25,712 bases of DNA from a virus. Shown in pieces: positions 1,342-13,719 of this stretch (positions are counted from its first letter, which is position 1; every line of letters starts with the position of its first letter). Below the pieces are notes generated by a model. That model was not told where the DNA came from and did not search any database. It worked only from the letters and a program-made list of their open reading frames with translations. The stretch lies in the IMG/VR virus record IMGVR_UViG_3300042564_002147, positions 1 through 25,712 of that record; one strand, written 5' to 3'. The translations under genes and the position numbers were made by a program.

Positions 1342-1591
1342 GTATCTTAAAACAACACTAAAGGCTTCAGTTTTGCGTGTTGTCTTTGTAAAGAAAGATG
1401 GTACCGAGCGTACTATGGTTTGCACATTGAATGCAAATTTACTTCCAGCTCAGACGGACCTTGAAGAGGCTGTACAAAAGAAGACTCCAAATCCAGATGT
1501 GCTAGCCGTGTGGGATCTTGAAGCACATGGATGGCGGTCATTCCGCTACGACTCTATCATCGGGTTCTCTGAAAGAGAATGGGTAGCATGA
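1262..1591 (+). CDS. WYL_2/DUF2693 family protein
   Basis: Residues about 27-105 match the small Sm-like beta-barrel domain common in T4-like phages (DUF2693/WYL_2). The signature strand is VVFVKKDGTERTMVCTL, followed later by VWDLEAHGWRSFRYDSI. The function of the family is not established. The start is uncertain: ATG 1262, ATG 1268 and GTG 1277 are in frame, and GGAG at 1264-1267 is best spaced for GTG 1277. All of these overlap the glutaredoxin end by 65-80 bases in another frame. The 3' end overlaps the HAD gene as ATGA. Confidence 0.75.
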   Translation: MEMKLVDSINLQNGSTQTQDETSWRNEYLKTTLKASVLRVVFVKKDGTERTMVCTLNANLLPAQTDLEEAVQKKTPNPDVLAVWDLEAHGWRSFRYDSIIGFSEREWVA

Positions 1592-1923
1592 TAGCTATTG
1601 TCGATATCGATCAGACGATCTGTACCACACCATACATAAATGGTAAACACGAATATGAGCAATCAGCTCCTATTGCACATCGTATTGAAGTTATAAATAA
1701 GCTATACGACCAAGGCTATACCATTATCTATTGGACAGCTAGAGGATCAGGATCCGGTATTGACTGGACCGATCTCACCACACAACAACTAAATGAATGG
1801 GGTTGCAAGTTTCATGACGTGCGTCTAGGAAAGCCTTCCTATGACATATGGATTGATGACAAGGCCATGAATGATAAGCAATTCTTTTATGACGCAGACC
1901 GTTCAGATCCATGGAGTGATTGA
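1588..1923 (+). CDS. HAD-family phosphatase of the capsule/sugar-phosphate type
   Basis: A 111-residue HAD-fold hydrolase without a large cap domain. Motif I is DIDQT (Asp6 and Asp8, nucleophile and acid/base), motif II is the threonine in YWTARG, and motifs III and IV are the lysine in LGKPSYD and the acidic pair in WIDDKAMN. The segment SGIDWTDLTTQQLNEWG is typical of HAD proteins in capsule and heptose-type sugar clusters. In this cassette it is the obvious candidate for removing a phosphate from a sugar bisphosphate, as GmhB does, although it is much shorter than GmhB. ATG 1588 (ATGA overlap, AGAG at 1574-1577) is preferred to ATG 1579. Substrate is inferred from context. Confidence 0.8.
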   Translation: MIAIVDIDQTICTTPYINGKHEYEQSAPIAHRIEVINKLYDQGYTIIYWTARGSGSGIDWTDLTTQQLNEWGCKFHDVRLGKPSYDIWIDDKAMNDKQFFYDADRSDPWSD

Positions 1924-2906
1924 TGAATAATCAAGACTTAATTGAATTGAATGAACTAAACAAGGAGTCGAATGGTGGGACTGAACTTACCACTCGTGGA
2001 CTTTTCGACCGTCTCGGACGAGACGAACTACAAGGTGTCCAAATCATTACTGCCCGAGTACGGGACCTTGACCCAGACCGAATTAGAATCTATCATTTGC
2101 ACGACCTCGCAGGAGATCCTGAGGCTTCGCACCTTAGAGATGAAGCTTCTAGACAGCGTTTTGACAAGCTTGTCTTTAGTTCCAATTGGCAGTACCAACA
2201 GTATCGTGACTATCTTGGCGTTCCATATAGCCATCATTCGTGTGTCATTGAAACAGGAGTTGAGCCAATTCCTCTCGTTGATAAACCGAAAGACAAGATA
2301 CGGCTTATTTACACCTCTACACCCCATCGTGGCCTCGAGATCCTAGTCCCAGTCTTTATTGCTCTGGCTAACAAGTATCCAAACATTGAGCTCGATGTGT
2401 TCAGTTCGTTTGGTATCTATGGTCCTGGTTGGGAACAGCGTGATGAGCAATACGAGCCACTGTTCGAAGCATGCCGTAACCATCCACAAATCAACTATCA
2501 TGGTTGGGCAGATCAGGAGACAGTACGTGCCGCATATCAAAAGGCTCACATCTTTGCGTATCCATGTATCTGGCCAGAAACGTCGTGCCGTTCTCTCATT
2601 GAAGCTATGTCGGCTGGTTGTCTTGCGGTACATCCTAACTTCTCTGCTCTGGCTGACACGTCGGGTGGGTTAACGGTACAGTATGACGGTGACCATGAAG
2701 ATCAAAACCTACATGCTAACATCTTTGCTCATACTCTGATGTATGCCATTGAGAATGTGCAGAACAACGACTTGACAAACCTACTCACATTCGTTAAGGC
2801 ATATGCTGATACCCGATTCTCTTGGGAATCAATCATGCCGAAGTGGAAGGGTCTGATTGCATCATTGAAGGAACAACAACGTGATTCTGGCAAAAGCGCC
2901 TCTTAG
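1923..2906 (+). CDS. GT-B (GT4-like) glycosyltransferase
   Basis: A 327-residue glycosyltransferase that should move a sugar from a nucleotide donor to an unidentified acceptor. The N-terminal domain includes NGGTELTTRGLFDRL, and the C-terminal domain begins near residue 125 (IRLIYTSTPHRGLEIL). The donor-site EX7E motif is Glu219 and Glu227 in PETSCRSLIEAMSAG. ATG 1923 overlaps the upstream stop and has GGAG at 1913-1916; a TTG at 1920 is also in frame. It overlaps the kinase gene by 26 bases. Acceptor candidates are modified phage DNA bases, or lipopolysaccharide or another surface glycan; the sequence does not decide between them. Confidence 0.85.
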   Translation: MNNQDLIELNELNKESNGGTELTTRGLFDRLGRDELQGVQIITARVRDLDPDRIRIYHLHDLAGDPEASHLRDEASRQRFDKLVFSSNWQYQQYRDYLGVPYSHHSCVIETGVEPIPLVDKPKDKIRLIYTSTPHRGLEILVPVFIALANKYPNIELDVFSSFGIYGPGWEQRDEQYEPLFEACRNHPQINYHGWADQETVRAAYQKAHIFAYPCIWPETSCRSLIEAMSAGCLAVHPNFSALADTSGGLTVQYDGDHEDQNLHANIFAHTLMYAIENVQNNDLTNLLTFVKAYADTRFSWESIMPKWKGLIASLKEQQRDSGKSAS

Positions 2907-3834
2907 AGTATCGTTCTTCGGTGGGGGTAGTGATATCCCCACCCACTTTGCTACGTGGGGTGGAGCCACTATCTCCACTGCTATCGACAAGTATGTCTAC
3001 GTAGCAGTCATGCATACTCCTCATAACCATATCAAGGTTTCCTATTCAAAACTTGAGTGTGTCACCGACATAGAAGACATTCAGAATGAAATAGTTCGGA
3101 ATGCTCTTAAGTTCTTCGGTATCAAATCCAACATCGAGATCACATCATTCGCAGACATCCCTACGATCGGCAACGGTCTTGGTGGATCGTCTGCTTTTAC
3201 TTGTGCTCTTGTCAAGGCATTATCTGCCTATCTTGGTTATGAATACGTCAATCCATATACTATTGCTAAGACTGCTTGTCATATCGAGATCGACCTATGT
3301 GGTTGGAAGATCGGCATGCAAGATCAGTTTGCATCTGCATTCGGTGGCATGAACTACATTAAATATTCTAACCGGTTTGGGACTAGTGATATTGATGTGA
3401 AGCGTCTTGATACAATGGGAATCGAGAACTACATGATCTTGATTCCAACTAACATCGAACATCACGCAGCAAAGATCCTCGACAATATTAACTTTGATGC
3501 AAAGACATTTGTAATTAATGAACTTGCTCGTATGGCAGATATGCAAAGCACTCAACTTGTAAATCCATTCGACTATGGTAGATTGTTGAACTCTGCATGG
3601 ATGTTAAAGAAACAGATGAGCGAAGGCATCTCTTCAGAAGATATAGATAGTATGTACGATCGATGCCAATCAGCAGGTGCGCTTGGAGCTAAGTTGCTCG
3701 GTGCAGGTGGCGGCGGTTATATGCTGGCACTTGTAGATTCAAAGAGTGCAATGCGCCAAGAATTCTCAGATCGTACCTGCTTAGACGTAGGAATCGCACA
3801 TGAAGGAGCAAGAGTTGTCTACAGAGATCTATAA
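2881..3834 (+). CDS. GHMP-family sugar kinase, D-glycero-D-manno-heptose 7-phosphate kinase (HddA)-like
   Basis: A 317-residue GHMP kinase that phosphorylates a sugar, probably at the anomeric position. Visible motifs are KAPLRVSFFGGGSD at residues 5-18, the glycine-rich ATP loop TIGNGLGGSSA at 95-105, the catalytic-type GMQDQFASAFGG near 145-156, and the third motif LLGAGGGGYML near 268-278. These fit the HddA / fucose-kinase-like branch. Start is GTG 2881 with AAGGA about 10 bases upstream, inside the glycosyltransferase end. With the following isomerase and the HAD phosphatase it forms three consecutive steps of a nucleotide-heptose-like route. The exact sugar is not determined. Confidence 0.85.
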   Translation: MILAKAPLRVSFFGGGSDIPTHFATWGGATISTAIDKYVYVAVMHTPHNHIKVSYSKLECVTDIEDIQNEIVRNALKFFGIKSNIEITSFADIPTIGNGLGGSSAFTCALVKALSAYLGYEYVNPYTIAKTACHIEIDLCGWKIGMQDQFASAFGGMNYIKYSNRFGTSDIDVKRLDTMGIENYMILIPTNIEHHAAKILDNINFDAKTFVINELARMADMQSTQLVNPFDYGRLLNSAWMLKKQMSEGISSEDIDSMYDRCQSAGALGAKLLGAGGGGYMLALVDSKSAMRQEFSDRTCLDVGIAHEGARVVYRDL

Positions 3835-4384
3835 TATATTTTGGCAACATCGCCATACCATCGAGGATGGGTTTGACTCTATCAACATGGATGTTTTGAT
3901 AAACGCTGCAAATGCAATCCTGGCTGCAGTTGAACAAGGCAAAACCATATATACTGCTGGTAATGGTGCATCTGCGGCTATTGCTCAACACTGGGCATGT
4001 GACTATACCAAAGGTTGTTCAGATCTTGAATCCGGATTTAAACCAAAGGTCATTTCGCTGTCTGCTAACATCCCTTTGATGACGGCGATCTCAAATGATA
4101 TTTCTTATGACGAAGTATATAGTTACCAACTCGAACGTCTTGCCAATCATGGCGATGTCTTTATCAGCATTAGTAGCTCTGGCAATTCCCCATCGGTGGT
4201 ACGAGCGTGTGAAGTTGCTGATGCTAAAGGTATGGACATCATTGCGCTGACAGGTTTCACCGGCGGTAGAACAAGAGAGTTGGCACATTATCCTATTCAT
4301 GTCAATGTTCAAGAGTACGAAGCGGTAGAAGATGTCCATCAGGCGATCATGCATATGATTGCAAAATACCTTCGCGCAAAATAG
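3800..4384 (+). CDS. SIS-domain phosphosugar isomerase, phosphoheptose isomerase (GmhA)-like
   Basis: A 194-residue SIS-domain isomerase, the expected first step of the cassette (sedoheptulose 7-phosphate to a heptose 7-phosphate, or a similar aldose-ketose pair). Phosphate-binding motifs are AGNGASAAIAQH at residues 53-64 and SISSSGNSPSVV at 123-134. The C-terminal EDVHQAIMH carries His180, matching the catalytic histidine of GmhA. Where E. coli GmhA has its catalytic Glu (HFAEEL) this protein has HWACDY with Asp68, as in SIS proteins of polysaccharide clusters, so substrate may differ. ATG 3800 has AGGA at 3789-3792 and overlaps the kinase by 35 bases. Confidence 0.85.
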   Translation: MKEQELSTEIYNIFWQHRHTIEDGFDSINMDVLINAANAILAAVEQGKTIYTAGNGASAAIAQHWACDYTKGCSDLESGFKPKVISLSANIPLMTAISNDISYDEVYSYQLERLANHGDVFISISSSGNSPSVVRACEVADAKGMDIIALTGFTGGRTRELAHYPIHVNVQEYEAVEDVHQAIMHMIAKYLRAK

Positions 4385-4387
4385 TTG

Positions 4388-4416
4388 TGTACAAATTATG
4401 AAAAGTATGGTAGGTT
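4388..4416 (+). promoter_or_regulatory. Repeated phage promoter, copy 2
   Basis: TGTACA at 4388-4393, a 17-base spacer containing AAAA, then TAGGTT at 4411-4416. The preceding bases AAAATAGT are shared with the copies at 9528 and 13018. The element starts right after the isomerase stop and 28 bases before the gene at 4445, so it begins a new transcription unit. Confidence 0.6.
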
Positions 4417-4444
4417 GAGAATATCAACTGCTAAGGAATAACAC

Positions 4445-5533
4445 ATGGCTATCAAGGTTAAAGCTAAACCAAAACAAATATCCCGCACGGCTATCAAGTC
4501 TATCGATGATAAGGCTTATGGGTCAGAACCTGTTCAGATCACCAAGCTCGGTGATGCCTTGAACTGGTACAACTACATGGCGACTGACGATCATTCGCGT
4601 GAGTGGTTCTTCACCTATGTAAAGAAGAACTACACCAAGACTGAGGTTGCTGCTCTTCGTAAACTTCCTAAGTGGAAGATCTCCAAGACACTTGGCAATG
4701 TGGCTCGTATCCTGCTCAACGGCAATAAGCTTCCACAGAAGAACATGGACTACTTTGACAATAGCGTCAAGGACCTTGTAAAGGTGTCAGCTGTTGTTCG
4801 TGAAGAAGTCGAAGAAGCACCGAAGACAACCATTGATATCCAGGCACGTATCCGTGCACGTGCGAATAGCCTTATCACTATGGTCGAAGAAGAAATTGAC
4901 AGTGTGATGGATGGCGGCACCTTAGACGTGTATAGCTTCCTTCAAAAGCATGAGGTTACACCTCAGGTTGCTGGTTATATCCGTGACTACTATCTGCCTA
5001 CAAAGGAAGAACTTGAACTTGATGATGAACAAGTCAAGGAAGCCTATGGCAAGAAGCTCAAGTTCTGGCGCACTTTTTATTGTACTCTTATTACAGACTG
5101 TGATAGATTCATAAATAATAAGAAGGCAGTCAAGATCCGCAAGCCACGTGAGAAGAAAGTCAAGTCGGCTGTAGATGTTGTCAAGAATATCAAGTATCAG
5201 AAACAAGAACCTTCGTTGAAGATTGTCTCGGTCCATCCGACTGAGATTGTAGGATGCAGTCAACTATGGGTATACAATACCAAGTACAAGAAGCTGACTC
5301 AGTATATCTCAATGAGTCCAAACGGCTTGCAGGTCAAGGGTACTACTCTGATTGGATACGACCCCGAACTGAGCATCTCGAAGTCCCTTCGGAAACCAGA
5401 GATTACGACTGCCGAACTCTTGAAAGCAGGCAAGGTAGCCATCAGGACTTTCATGGCAGATCTTAAGACAACCCCATCCGCACCGAATGGTCGGATAAAC
5501 GAACAAACAATTCTATTAAGGGTTATTAAGTGA
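4445..5533 (+). CDS. Conserved phage protein of unknown function
   Basis: A 362-residue protein with no recognised catalytic motif. The N-terminal half is helical and basic (residues 1-110), the middle is charged and rich in Glu, Lys and Arg (EEVEEAPKTT, then two helices), a Lys-rich linker KIRKPREKKVKS lies around residue 235, and the C-terminal part is beta-rich (HPTEIVGCSQLWVYNTKYKK). The start has AAGGA seven bases upstream and its own promoter at 4388-4416. The position ahead of rnh suggests a replication-region gene, but no function is claimed. The stop overlaps the next gene's GTG start (AAGTGA). Confidence 0.7.
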   Translation: MAIKVKAKPKQISRTAIKSIDDKAYGSEPVQITKLGDALNWYNYMATDDHSREWFFTYVKKNYTKTEVAALRKLPKWKISKTLGNVARILLNGNKLPQKNMDYFDNSVKDLVKVSAVVREEVEEAPKTTIDIQARIRARANSLITMVEEEIDSVMDGGTLDVYSFLQKHEVTPQVAGYIRDYYLPTKEELELDDEQVKEAYGKKLKFWRTFYCTLITDCDRFINNKKAVKIRKPREKKVKSAVDVVKNIKYQKQEPSLKIVSVHPTEIVGCSQLWVYNTKYKKLTQYISMSPNGLQVKGTTLIGYDPELSISKSLRKPEITTAELLKAGKVAIRTFMADLKTTPSAPNGRINEQTILLRVIK

Positions 5534-13017: not shown

Positions 13018-13046
13018 TGTACAATTAAGTCAAAACATTGTATATA
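13018..13046 (+). promoter_or_regulatory. Repeated phage promoter, copy 7, upstream of tmRNA
   Basis: TGTACA at 13018-13023, a 17-base spacer with CAAAAC, then TATATA at 13041-13046, led by AAAATAGTTG as in copies 2 and 4. The predicted start, about 13053, coincides with the 5' end of the tmRNA precursor judged from base pairing. Confidence 0.7.
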
Positions 13047-13054
13047 TAGTATAT

Positions 13055-13117
13055 CAGTTGTTGACAATCAACAATAAAGGCGGAAAGACCGGGGTTCGAC
13101 TCCCCGCACCTCCACCA
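13055..13117 (+). ncRNA. tmRNA acceptor piece
   Basis: The mature 3' half: a helix segment, then GAC, a five-pair T stem with loop TTCGACT, the acceptor 3' strand CACCTCC, discriminator A and CCA at 13115-13117. The layout GAC-stem-TTCRACT-stem-CASCTCC-ACCA is the same as at the 3' end of E. coli tmRNA. The exact 5' end is estimated from the promoter and from pairing with 13447-13453. Confidence 0.88.
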
Positions 13118-13239
13118 TAGATACTCTGGGCCGAATACACACCGGCTAATAAAAGTTTCGATTACTATTGCTGAAATCCGGGCAATAGAATAGGCAGAGT
13201 TTGGAATCGCAGGTACTCTCTAGCCAGAGTGTCTATGAT
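13118..13239 (+). other. tmRNA internal spacer removed on processing
   Basis: The 122 bases between the CCA and the coding-piece 5' end. TAGATACTCTGG at 13118-13129 pairs with CCAGAGTGTCTA at 13224-13235 (one G-T pair), extending the acceptor helix into a hairpin. This is the expected shape of the pre-tmRNA before the 5' end of the coding piece and the CCA end are freed. Confidence 0.8.
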
Positions 13240-13453
13240 GGGGGTGACCATGGAATTCGATTTTCGTGTAATAGGGCGGTTCGAGACTGATTGCTTGGCA
13301 AAGTGCCATTAAACATAAATGCTAACGATAACGATAGCTTTGCAGATATCCGCCTAGCGGCATGATCTACACGGGTATGGCTCCACCTTGGAACAGAACG
13401 GGCCAATTTGCTACCAGTTGCACTGCCGGTGCTACGGGTTGATATGACAACTG
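13240..13453 (+). ncRNA. tmRNA coding piece
   Basis: Begins with GGGGGTGACCATGGAATTCG (acceptor 5' strand and D-loop-like region), runs through a pseudoknot-sized segment to the resume codon at 13321, and continues past the tag stop into a structured tail including GCAC-TGCCG-GTGC. The 3' end is estimated from the pairing of ACAACTG at 13447-13453 with the precursor start. Confidence 0.85.
13321..13365 (+). other. tmRNA tag reading frame, ANDNDSFADIRLAA
   Basis: GCT at 13321 is the resume codon. The frame reads fourteen residues, ANDNDSFADIRLAA, and ends with TGA at 13363-13365. It is preceded by AAACATAAAT, similar to the resume context of other tmRNAs. ANDN at the start and LAA at the end are standard for alphaproteobacterial tags; the DSFADI middle is longer than in rhizobial tags. 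Confidence 0.9.
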
Positions 13454-13719
13454 GTATAAATATTAGTATGCGGAGGTTGAAATCCTCCATTGACTCTTAC
13501 AAAACTTCAAGTCTTAGATGGCTAGAAAGCGGCATCATCCGGATGCCACCGACGAAAACAACTAATGATTTTGCATTTCCAGTAAGAGGGAAATGGATGG
13601 AAGATACACCTTCGTTATTTCATTTTGTATCTTCTAATAGCATTGATGACGATAAAGGGTTGAGACACTCTGGTAGCTTCGTCTTCATTGTCAAAGTCAT
13701 TTGACAAAAAGAGGATTAA
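13454..13719 (+). other. Unassigned stretch between tmRNA and endolysin
   Basis: No confident gene. It contains a TATAAATA octamer, a hairpin GGAGG-TTGAAAT-CCTCC at about 13471-13487 and a second hairpin GGCATC/GATGCC at about 13528-13545. A reading frame open from ATG 13468 to 13704 (78 codons) has no ribosome-binding site. A shorter version from ATG 13597 (35 codons) has AGAGGG eight bases upstream. The stretch may be the leader of the lysin transcript, a small RNA or a short gene. Confidence 0.4.
13455..13462 (+). promoter_or_regulatory. Possible T4-type late promoter ahead of the endolysin
   Basis: TATAAATA, the T4 late -10 octamer, directly after the inferred tmRNA 3' end. The next clear gene is the endolysin at 13720, a product expected late in infection. 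A single octamer in AT-rich DNA is weak evidence by itself. Confidence 0.45.

Follow-up and report, generated by a model that had tools for sequence, protein, structure and literature searches.

What does a T4-like phage make with an isomerase, a sugar kinase, a phosphatase and a glycosyltransferase encoded in four overlapping genes? The genes occupy 1579/1588-4384 on the + strand of the IMG/VR record IMGVR_UViG_3300042564_002147, the entirety of which (25,712 bases) is the window of this study. The record stems from a freshwater T4-like myophage, and the window encodes RNase H, PhoH, gp59, gp32, a gp33-like coactivator and T4-type baseplate proteins. We propose that the four genes constitute the phage's own supply of activated heptose together with the enzyme that uses it, and that the acceptor is most likely a glycan of the host envelope; we assign this reading a probability of roughly 0.55. 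The narrower prediction of a nucleotide-heptose donor plus a transferase is well supported. An earlier note on this DNA had described four overlapping genes that cover three consecutive reactions of a nucleotide-heptose-like route and supply a transferase. The genes lie where that note placed them, in the families that it named, and the succession of steps is borne out by family assignment, conservation and natural gene fusions.

Gene families of the cassette

The genes are arranged as follows.

1579..1923 (start maybe ATG 1588), + strand: small C0-type HAD phosphatase, predicted sugar-bisphosphate phosphatase, 111-114 amino acids (aa)
1920 (TTG) or 1923 (ATG)..2906, + strand: GT4-type retaining glycosyltransferase of the GT-B fold, ~327 aa
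2881..3834, GTG start, + strand: GHMP kinase, HddA-like (PF00288, PF08544, HddA)
3800..4384, + strand: SIS-domain isomerase, GmhA-like, predicted sedoheptulose 7-phosphate isomerase (PF13580, GmhA)

The phosphatase and glycosyltransferase genes overlap by 1 nucleotide (nt), with the stop codon TGA of the former at 1921-1923 and the ATG of the latter at 1923. The overlap is 26 nt between the transferase and kinase genes and 35 nt between the kinase and isomerase genes.

The isomerase matches SIS_2 (PF13580, 1.6e-23), and its best NCBIfam profile is GmhA (3.9e-32); no match to KdsD is listed for it among the NCBIfam profiles. GmhA proteins are also its best relatives in the PDB (9.4e-26). Its metal-site positions are H, D, E and H, the same set as in sphingomonad GmhA-like proteins of heptose-type operons, and differ from better studied GmhA by Asp in place of Glu and Glu in place of Gln. 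The kinase matches PF00288 (1.4e-12), PF08544 and, as its best NCBIfam profile, HddA (1.5e-33). Its PDB matches are the heptose kinases 4usm/4usk and 3k85 (~1e-28 to 1e-30), and the GHMP motifs GLGGSSA, QDQ and GAGGGG are conserved in the alignment. Both the isomerase and the kinase score under the curated equivalog cut-offs, and thus we infer their substrate from family membership.

The bacterial homologues of the kinase and isomerase belong to alphaproteobacterial heptose-type operons (Sphingomonas, Sphingobium, Brevundimonas and others). The sphingomonad-type operon contains, in order, an epimerase, a fusion of nucleotidyltransferase and GmhB-like HAD, the kinase and the SIS isomerase. Given that the last two genes follow each other as in the phage, the overlapping kinase-isomerase pair resembles a fragment of one of these operons.

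The HAD protein retains the motifs DxDxT (DIDQT), TARG and K...DD. The 114-aa protein has no match to the GmhB family and instead matches phrog_1238 (5e-29) and, weakly, the capsule phosphatase model TIGR01689 EcbF/BcbF (4e-4); a further weak match is PF25109, and its PDB match is 9iqw, a 'capsule biosynthesis protein' (1.9e-11). The assignments of the earlier note for the isomerase, kinase and glycosyltransferase therefore stand unchanged, and its phosphatase is refined to a small capsule-phosphatase-like HAD that is no GmhB orthologue. The PHROG name of phrog_1238, 'phosphoheptose isomerase', was not accepted because the match is to a HAD protein. This label of a small HAD family is common in cyanophage annotations.

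The glycosyltransferase matches PF00534 (5.7e-9), PF13692 and phrog_2170 (3.5e-42), and its EX7E motif (E220/E228) is intact. Its confident AlphaFold model (pLDDT 89.3, pTM 0.88) resembles the retaining GT4 enzymes HepE (Z 27.2), SenB, MshA, BshA and PimA as the nearest PDB folds, with Z values of ~24-27 over ~285 residues.

Conservation and the nucleotidyltransferase

Scans of viral contigs with the kinase and the isomerase as queries yielded 118 loci, 65 of which had enough flanking sequence. All four genes are present in each of these 65 loci, in the order phosphatase, transferase, kinase, isomerase in 59, and a nucleotide-sugar epimerase is additionally found in six. The ratio of nonsynonymous to synonymous substitution rates (dN/dS), where computable between the window and six relatives, is ~0.05-0.3 for all four genes. 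Such complete retention and low dN/dS values indicate that the genes are kept for their function under purifying selection.

Which enzyme activates the sugar? No nucleotidyltransferase or epimerase has a profile match in the window, and PF01467 is likewise without a match there. The earlier note had suggested that the missing nucleotidyltransferase may lie upstream, and relatives do encode one away from the cassette. A search of related phage DNA recovered a 137-aa HldC/TagD-like PF01467 protein in a 128.8-kb relative (G001:5117-5530), ~39 kb upstream of the cassette of that phage. A protein 51% identical to it, gp178, carries the annotation heptose 1-phosphate adenylyltransferase in Caulobacter phage Cr30; its gene lies ~5 kb from the Cr30 cassette if the two ends of the record are joined. 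The best profile of the 137-aa protein is rfaE_dom_II, the heptose 1-phosphate adenylyltransferase domain (3.8e-18, under the cut-off), closely followed by glycerol-3-phosphate cytidylyltransferase (9e-16). RmlA-like (PF00483/PF12804) and CTP_transf_3 (PF02348) proteins were absent from the cassette clade, including the 128.8-kb relative, and from the complete Cr30 genome. An HddC-type (RmlA-like) guanylyltransferase was thus rejected for the cassette on the basis of Cr30 and the 128.8-kb relative, the genome of the window being itself incomplete.

Two natural fusions tie the nucleotidyltransferase to the cassette enzymes. In the jumbo phage LR756511 (LR756511.1), one 463-aa frame (L318:4785-6173) adjoining an epimerase gene encodes a GHMP kinase fused to a PF01467 nucleotidyltransferase, an arrangement like that of HldE but with a kinase of unrelated type. 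In SynMITS9220M01_206, a homologue of the window HAD is fused to the nucleotidyltransferase within a cluster of glycosyltransferase, kinase, isomerase, HAD.NTase and epimerase. In Acinetobacter phage vB_AbaM_3098 (L319:4977-5750), this nucleotidyltransferase and a cupin-like domain behind it share one frame, as judged by eye.

Acting together, these enzymes would start from a sugar phosphate common in the host, build an activated heptose from it and link that heptose to some component of the infected cell. After the isomerase has acted as the first enzyme, the GHMP kinase would phosphorylate C1, and the small HAD would remove the C7 phosphate. The HldC/TagD-like nucleotidyltransferase, presumably located outside this contig as its presence in relatives suggests, would then form a nucleoside diphosphate heptose, from which the GT4 enzyme would pass heptose with retention to the acceptor. 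Homology, motifs and conservation argue for the first three steps and the transferase, and the relatives and gene fusions argue for the nucleotidyltransferase. The earlier note had also considered that the route might end in a heptose metabolite; this is less likely, given that a nucleotidyltransferase and a conserved transferase accompany the route.

The acceptor of the sugar

To what does the phage attach the heptose? The acceptor would be a host envelope glycan or a lipid-linked precursor, changed during infection to block superinfection or to alter receptors. This role is suggested by the kinship with bacterial heptose operons and by published work in which sugar genes of cyanophages and pelagimyophages are read as modifying lipopolysaccharide (LPS) or capsule (PMC7378029, PMC7824862, PMC7029224). 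Phage LPS/capsule clusters are recognized by nucleotide-sugar genes accompanied by a polysaccharide-type glycosyltransferase, and the cassette, the nucleotidyltransferase of its relatives and the GT4 enzyme provide both. Host surface glycans, named by the earlier note as an alternative to DNA, fit better than a DNA base as the acceptor that we infer.

Several observations weigh against a heptose-supply cassette directed at the envelope. Apart from the isomerase and kinase scores under the NCBIfam cut-offs and a HAD that is not GmhB, the cassette sits in a replication/nucleotide module, away from the tail fibres, which is unusual for a surface-modification set. The history of the locus raises a further point. 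Homologues of the glycosyltransferase occupy the corresponding region in Cr30, phiM12, RHph_I1_18 and OspM_OC, and in the last three the gene precedes RNase H, and SIS_2 and GHMP genes are missing. The donor in phiM12-like phages need not be heptose. The transferase thus appears to be older at the locus than the donor genes, which the phage may have gained later in order to provide a sugar missing from its host. Contrary to expectation, the nucleotidyltransferase is not exclusive to the cassette either. In a second aquatic T4-like lineage (L264-L310; one record of 171.6 kb), it is common and directly follows RNase H (e.g. L293:7980-8420), and no SIS_2 or GHMP family member was found in the records of this lineage that were tested. 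It therefore also serves elsewhere.

The same module raises the question of whether the transferase instead places heptose or a related sugar on a base of the phage DNA, during or after replication, as protection from restriction. The gene is a fixed member of a nucleotide/replication block with NrdA, NrdB, glutaredoxin, RNase H, gp59 and gp32 nearby, and likewise of the corresponding region in phiM12-like phages, which is why we keep DNA modification as a possibility, an improbable one. We know of no description of a heptose DNA base modification. Precedents of other kinds exist: the T4-like Agrobacterium phage Atu_ph04, which carries a GT1 gene, resists nine restriction enzymes (PMC6630229), and phage Thanatos is reported to bear a deoxypentose on cytosine without a hydroxymethyl bridge (PMC12838424). 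Atu_ph04, however, is not among the listed records with a homologue of the window transferase. The transferase has no Pfam match to the T4 AGT/BGT families, and its sequence families point to GT4. The 50 best structural matches listed, with GT4 enzymes first, do not include T4 AGT or BGT, an absence that carries no weight. The isomerase is GmhA-like rather than KdsD-like. Because the window is a fragment, a dCMP hydroxymethylase (gene 42; a PF00303 protein with Asp) was sought in relatives. Eight IMG/VR relatives, the 128.8-kb contig among them, yielded no PF00303 protein, and the single PF00303 proteins of Cr30 (complete), phiM12 and RHph all have the Asn of thymidylate synthase. The sole ThyA-like protein of Cr30 is, judging from its sequence, an ordinary thymidylate synthase. 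A C5 cytosine methyltransferase (PF00145) was not found in the relatives either, the complete Cr30 included. With neither enzyme found in the relatives, the new DNA base modification suggested by the earlier note is not supported and makes a weak case. Heptose on the phage's own DNA, made by the hybrid route of GHMP kinase and HldC-type nucleotidyltransferase in the absence of hydroxymethylcytosine, is more doubtful still.

A protein or small molecule of phage or host could also receive the heptose, through glycosylation of virion proteins or takeover of a host factor. GT4 enzymes with small-molecule or protein Ser acceptors (BshA, MshA, SenB, SdgB and GtfA) share the predicted fold, and a place among replication genes suits an intracellular target. 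An acceptor is nevertheless not deducible from fold likeness, and no candidate acceptor protein was identified; we regard this explanation as unlikely. The sugar itself might be another one if the heptose names were mere family labels and the enzymes acted on some other substrate such as a hexose phosphate or a pentose phosphate. All scores under the curated cut-offs and the departures of the metal site from better studied GmhA are in keeping with this idea. However, the sphingomonad SIS proteins encoded in heptose-type operons have identical metal-site residues, the best matches of the kinase in both NCBIfam and the PDB are heptose kinases, and that of the nucleotidyltransferase is the heptose 1-phosphate adenylyltransferase domain. 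A different sugar thus has a low probability, and a heptose donor for the host envelope is the reading that we prefer.

Neighbouring genes and known systems

The wider gene order among relatives is SpeD, glutaredoxin, a WYL_2 protein, the four cassette genes, a phrog_11903 protein, RNase H and PhoH. The gene for SpeD (S-adenosylmethionine decarboxylase; 66-452 in the window) is conserved a short distance ahead of the cassette in almost every relative. The phrog_11903 protein of unknown function (4445-5533) has no Pfam match, and its gene neighbours RNase H both in the cassette clade and, at ~25% identity, in the second T4-like lineage; its place is taken by gp005 in Cr30 and by a gene of similar size in phiM12. 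Many relatives carry a 251-aa Methyltransf_24-like gene between the isomerase and phrog_11903 genes (e.g. L003:5420-6175) that the window lacks. It was rejected as a candidate nucleotidyltransferase because of this family membership, and its product possibly methylates the sugar. Identity across many relatives is 85-91% for the transferase and kinase and mostly ~57-75% for the isomerase, the phrog_11903 protein and SpeD. Synonymous differences are often lower in the kinase too, as if the transferase-kinase block (1923-3834 versus 3800-5533) had been exchanged between lineages. The 128.8-kb relative also encodes a FabF-like beta-ketoacyl-ACP (acyl carrier protein) synthase (L137:18656-19765). 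The human-gut record MT835644 gave good matches and was set aside because of its high-GC, bacterial-looking DNA. The window further contains a permuted two-piece transfer-messenger RNA (tmRNA) gene (13022-13456, + strand; Rfam RF04321 match at 13056-13365, 90 bits) with the tag ANDNDSFADIRLAA. Its start, AND, presumably resembles those of alphaproteobacterial tags and may hint at the host.

How does the cassette compare with known systems? The earlier note drew a parallel to the arabinosyl-hydroxymethylcytosine pathway of RB69, in which a phage SIS-family protein is likewise proposed to function in donor synthesis. This parallel is not supported, since the RB69 protein is described as KdsD/GutQ-like (arabinose 5-phosphate isomerase) and its base is hydroxymethylcytosine (PMC6024577), unlike the GmhA-like isomerase and the relatives of the cassette, in which no hydroxymethylase was found. 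The cluster of SynMITS9220M01 shares a GHMP kinase, an SIS isomerase, a HAD.NTase fusion, an epimerase and a glycosyltransferase with the cassette and its relatives, although its glycosyltransferase is not clearly related to that of the window (19% in alignment A2). Cyanophage clusters of the SynMITS9220M01, Bellamy and P-SSM2 type are larger, with many glycosyltransferases and epimerases, whereas the window set is minimal and resides in a replication module. Phage LPS genes are usually reported from the variable tail-fibre region; here, a large aquatic T4-like clade has a predicted nucleotide-heptose route that is compact, strictly conserved and fixed in its position among replication genes.

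Like the cassette, the GDP-heptose pathway (GmhA/HddA/GmhB/HddC; e.g. Campylobacter jejuni Cj1423-1425) uses an isomerase of the GmhA type and a GHMP kinase of the HddA type. It differs in that the window HAD is small and BcbF-like rather than GmhB, and in that the nucleotidyltransferase of the relatives is HldC/TagD-like (PF01467) rather than RmlA-like HddC. The ADP-heptose pathway of the HldE type shares the HldC-type nucleotidyltransferase, in relatives only, and the cassette kinase is of the GHMP type. The cassette is thus a known kind of phage sugar-nucleotide system in a new form, with a GHMP kinase and an HldC-type rather than an HddC-type nucleotidyltransferase. Such a pairing joins halves of two textbook heptose pathways, which one jumbo phage has fused.

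The closest described counterpart is Cr30 (gp005-gp012 and gp178; NC_025422), with a syntenic SIS isomerase (47% over the aligned part), an HddA-like kinase (gp008; 37%, alignment A1) and a glycosyltransferase (gp009; 46%) next to glutaredoxin. Where the window has the HAD gene, Cr30 has a GalE/heptose-epimerase-like short-chain dehydrogenase/reductase (SDR) gene, and neither 1-20 kb nor 140-156 kb of its record, the stretches covered, contains a HAD profile match. As a laboratory transducing phage of Caulobacter with a syntenic set, Cr30 brings direct tests of the sugar, of its acceptor and of DNA modification within reach.

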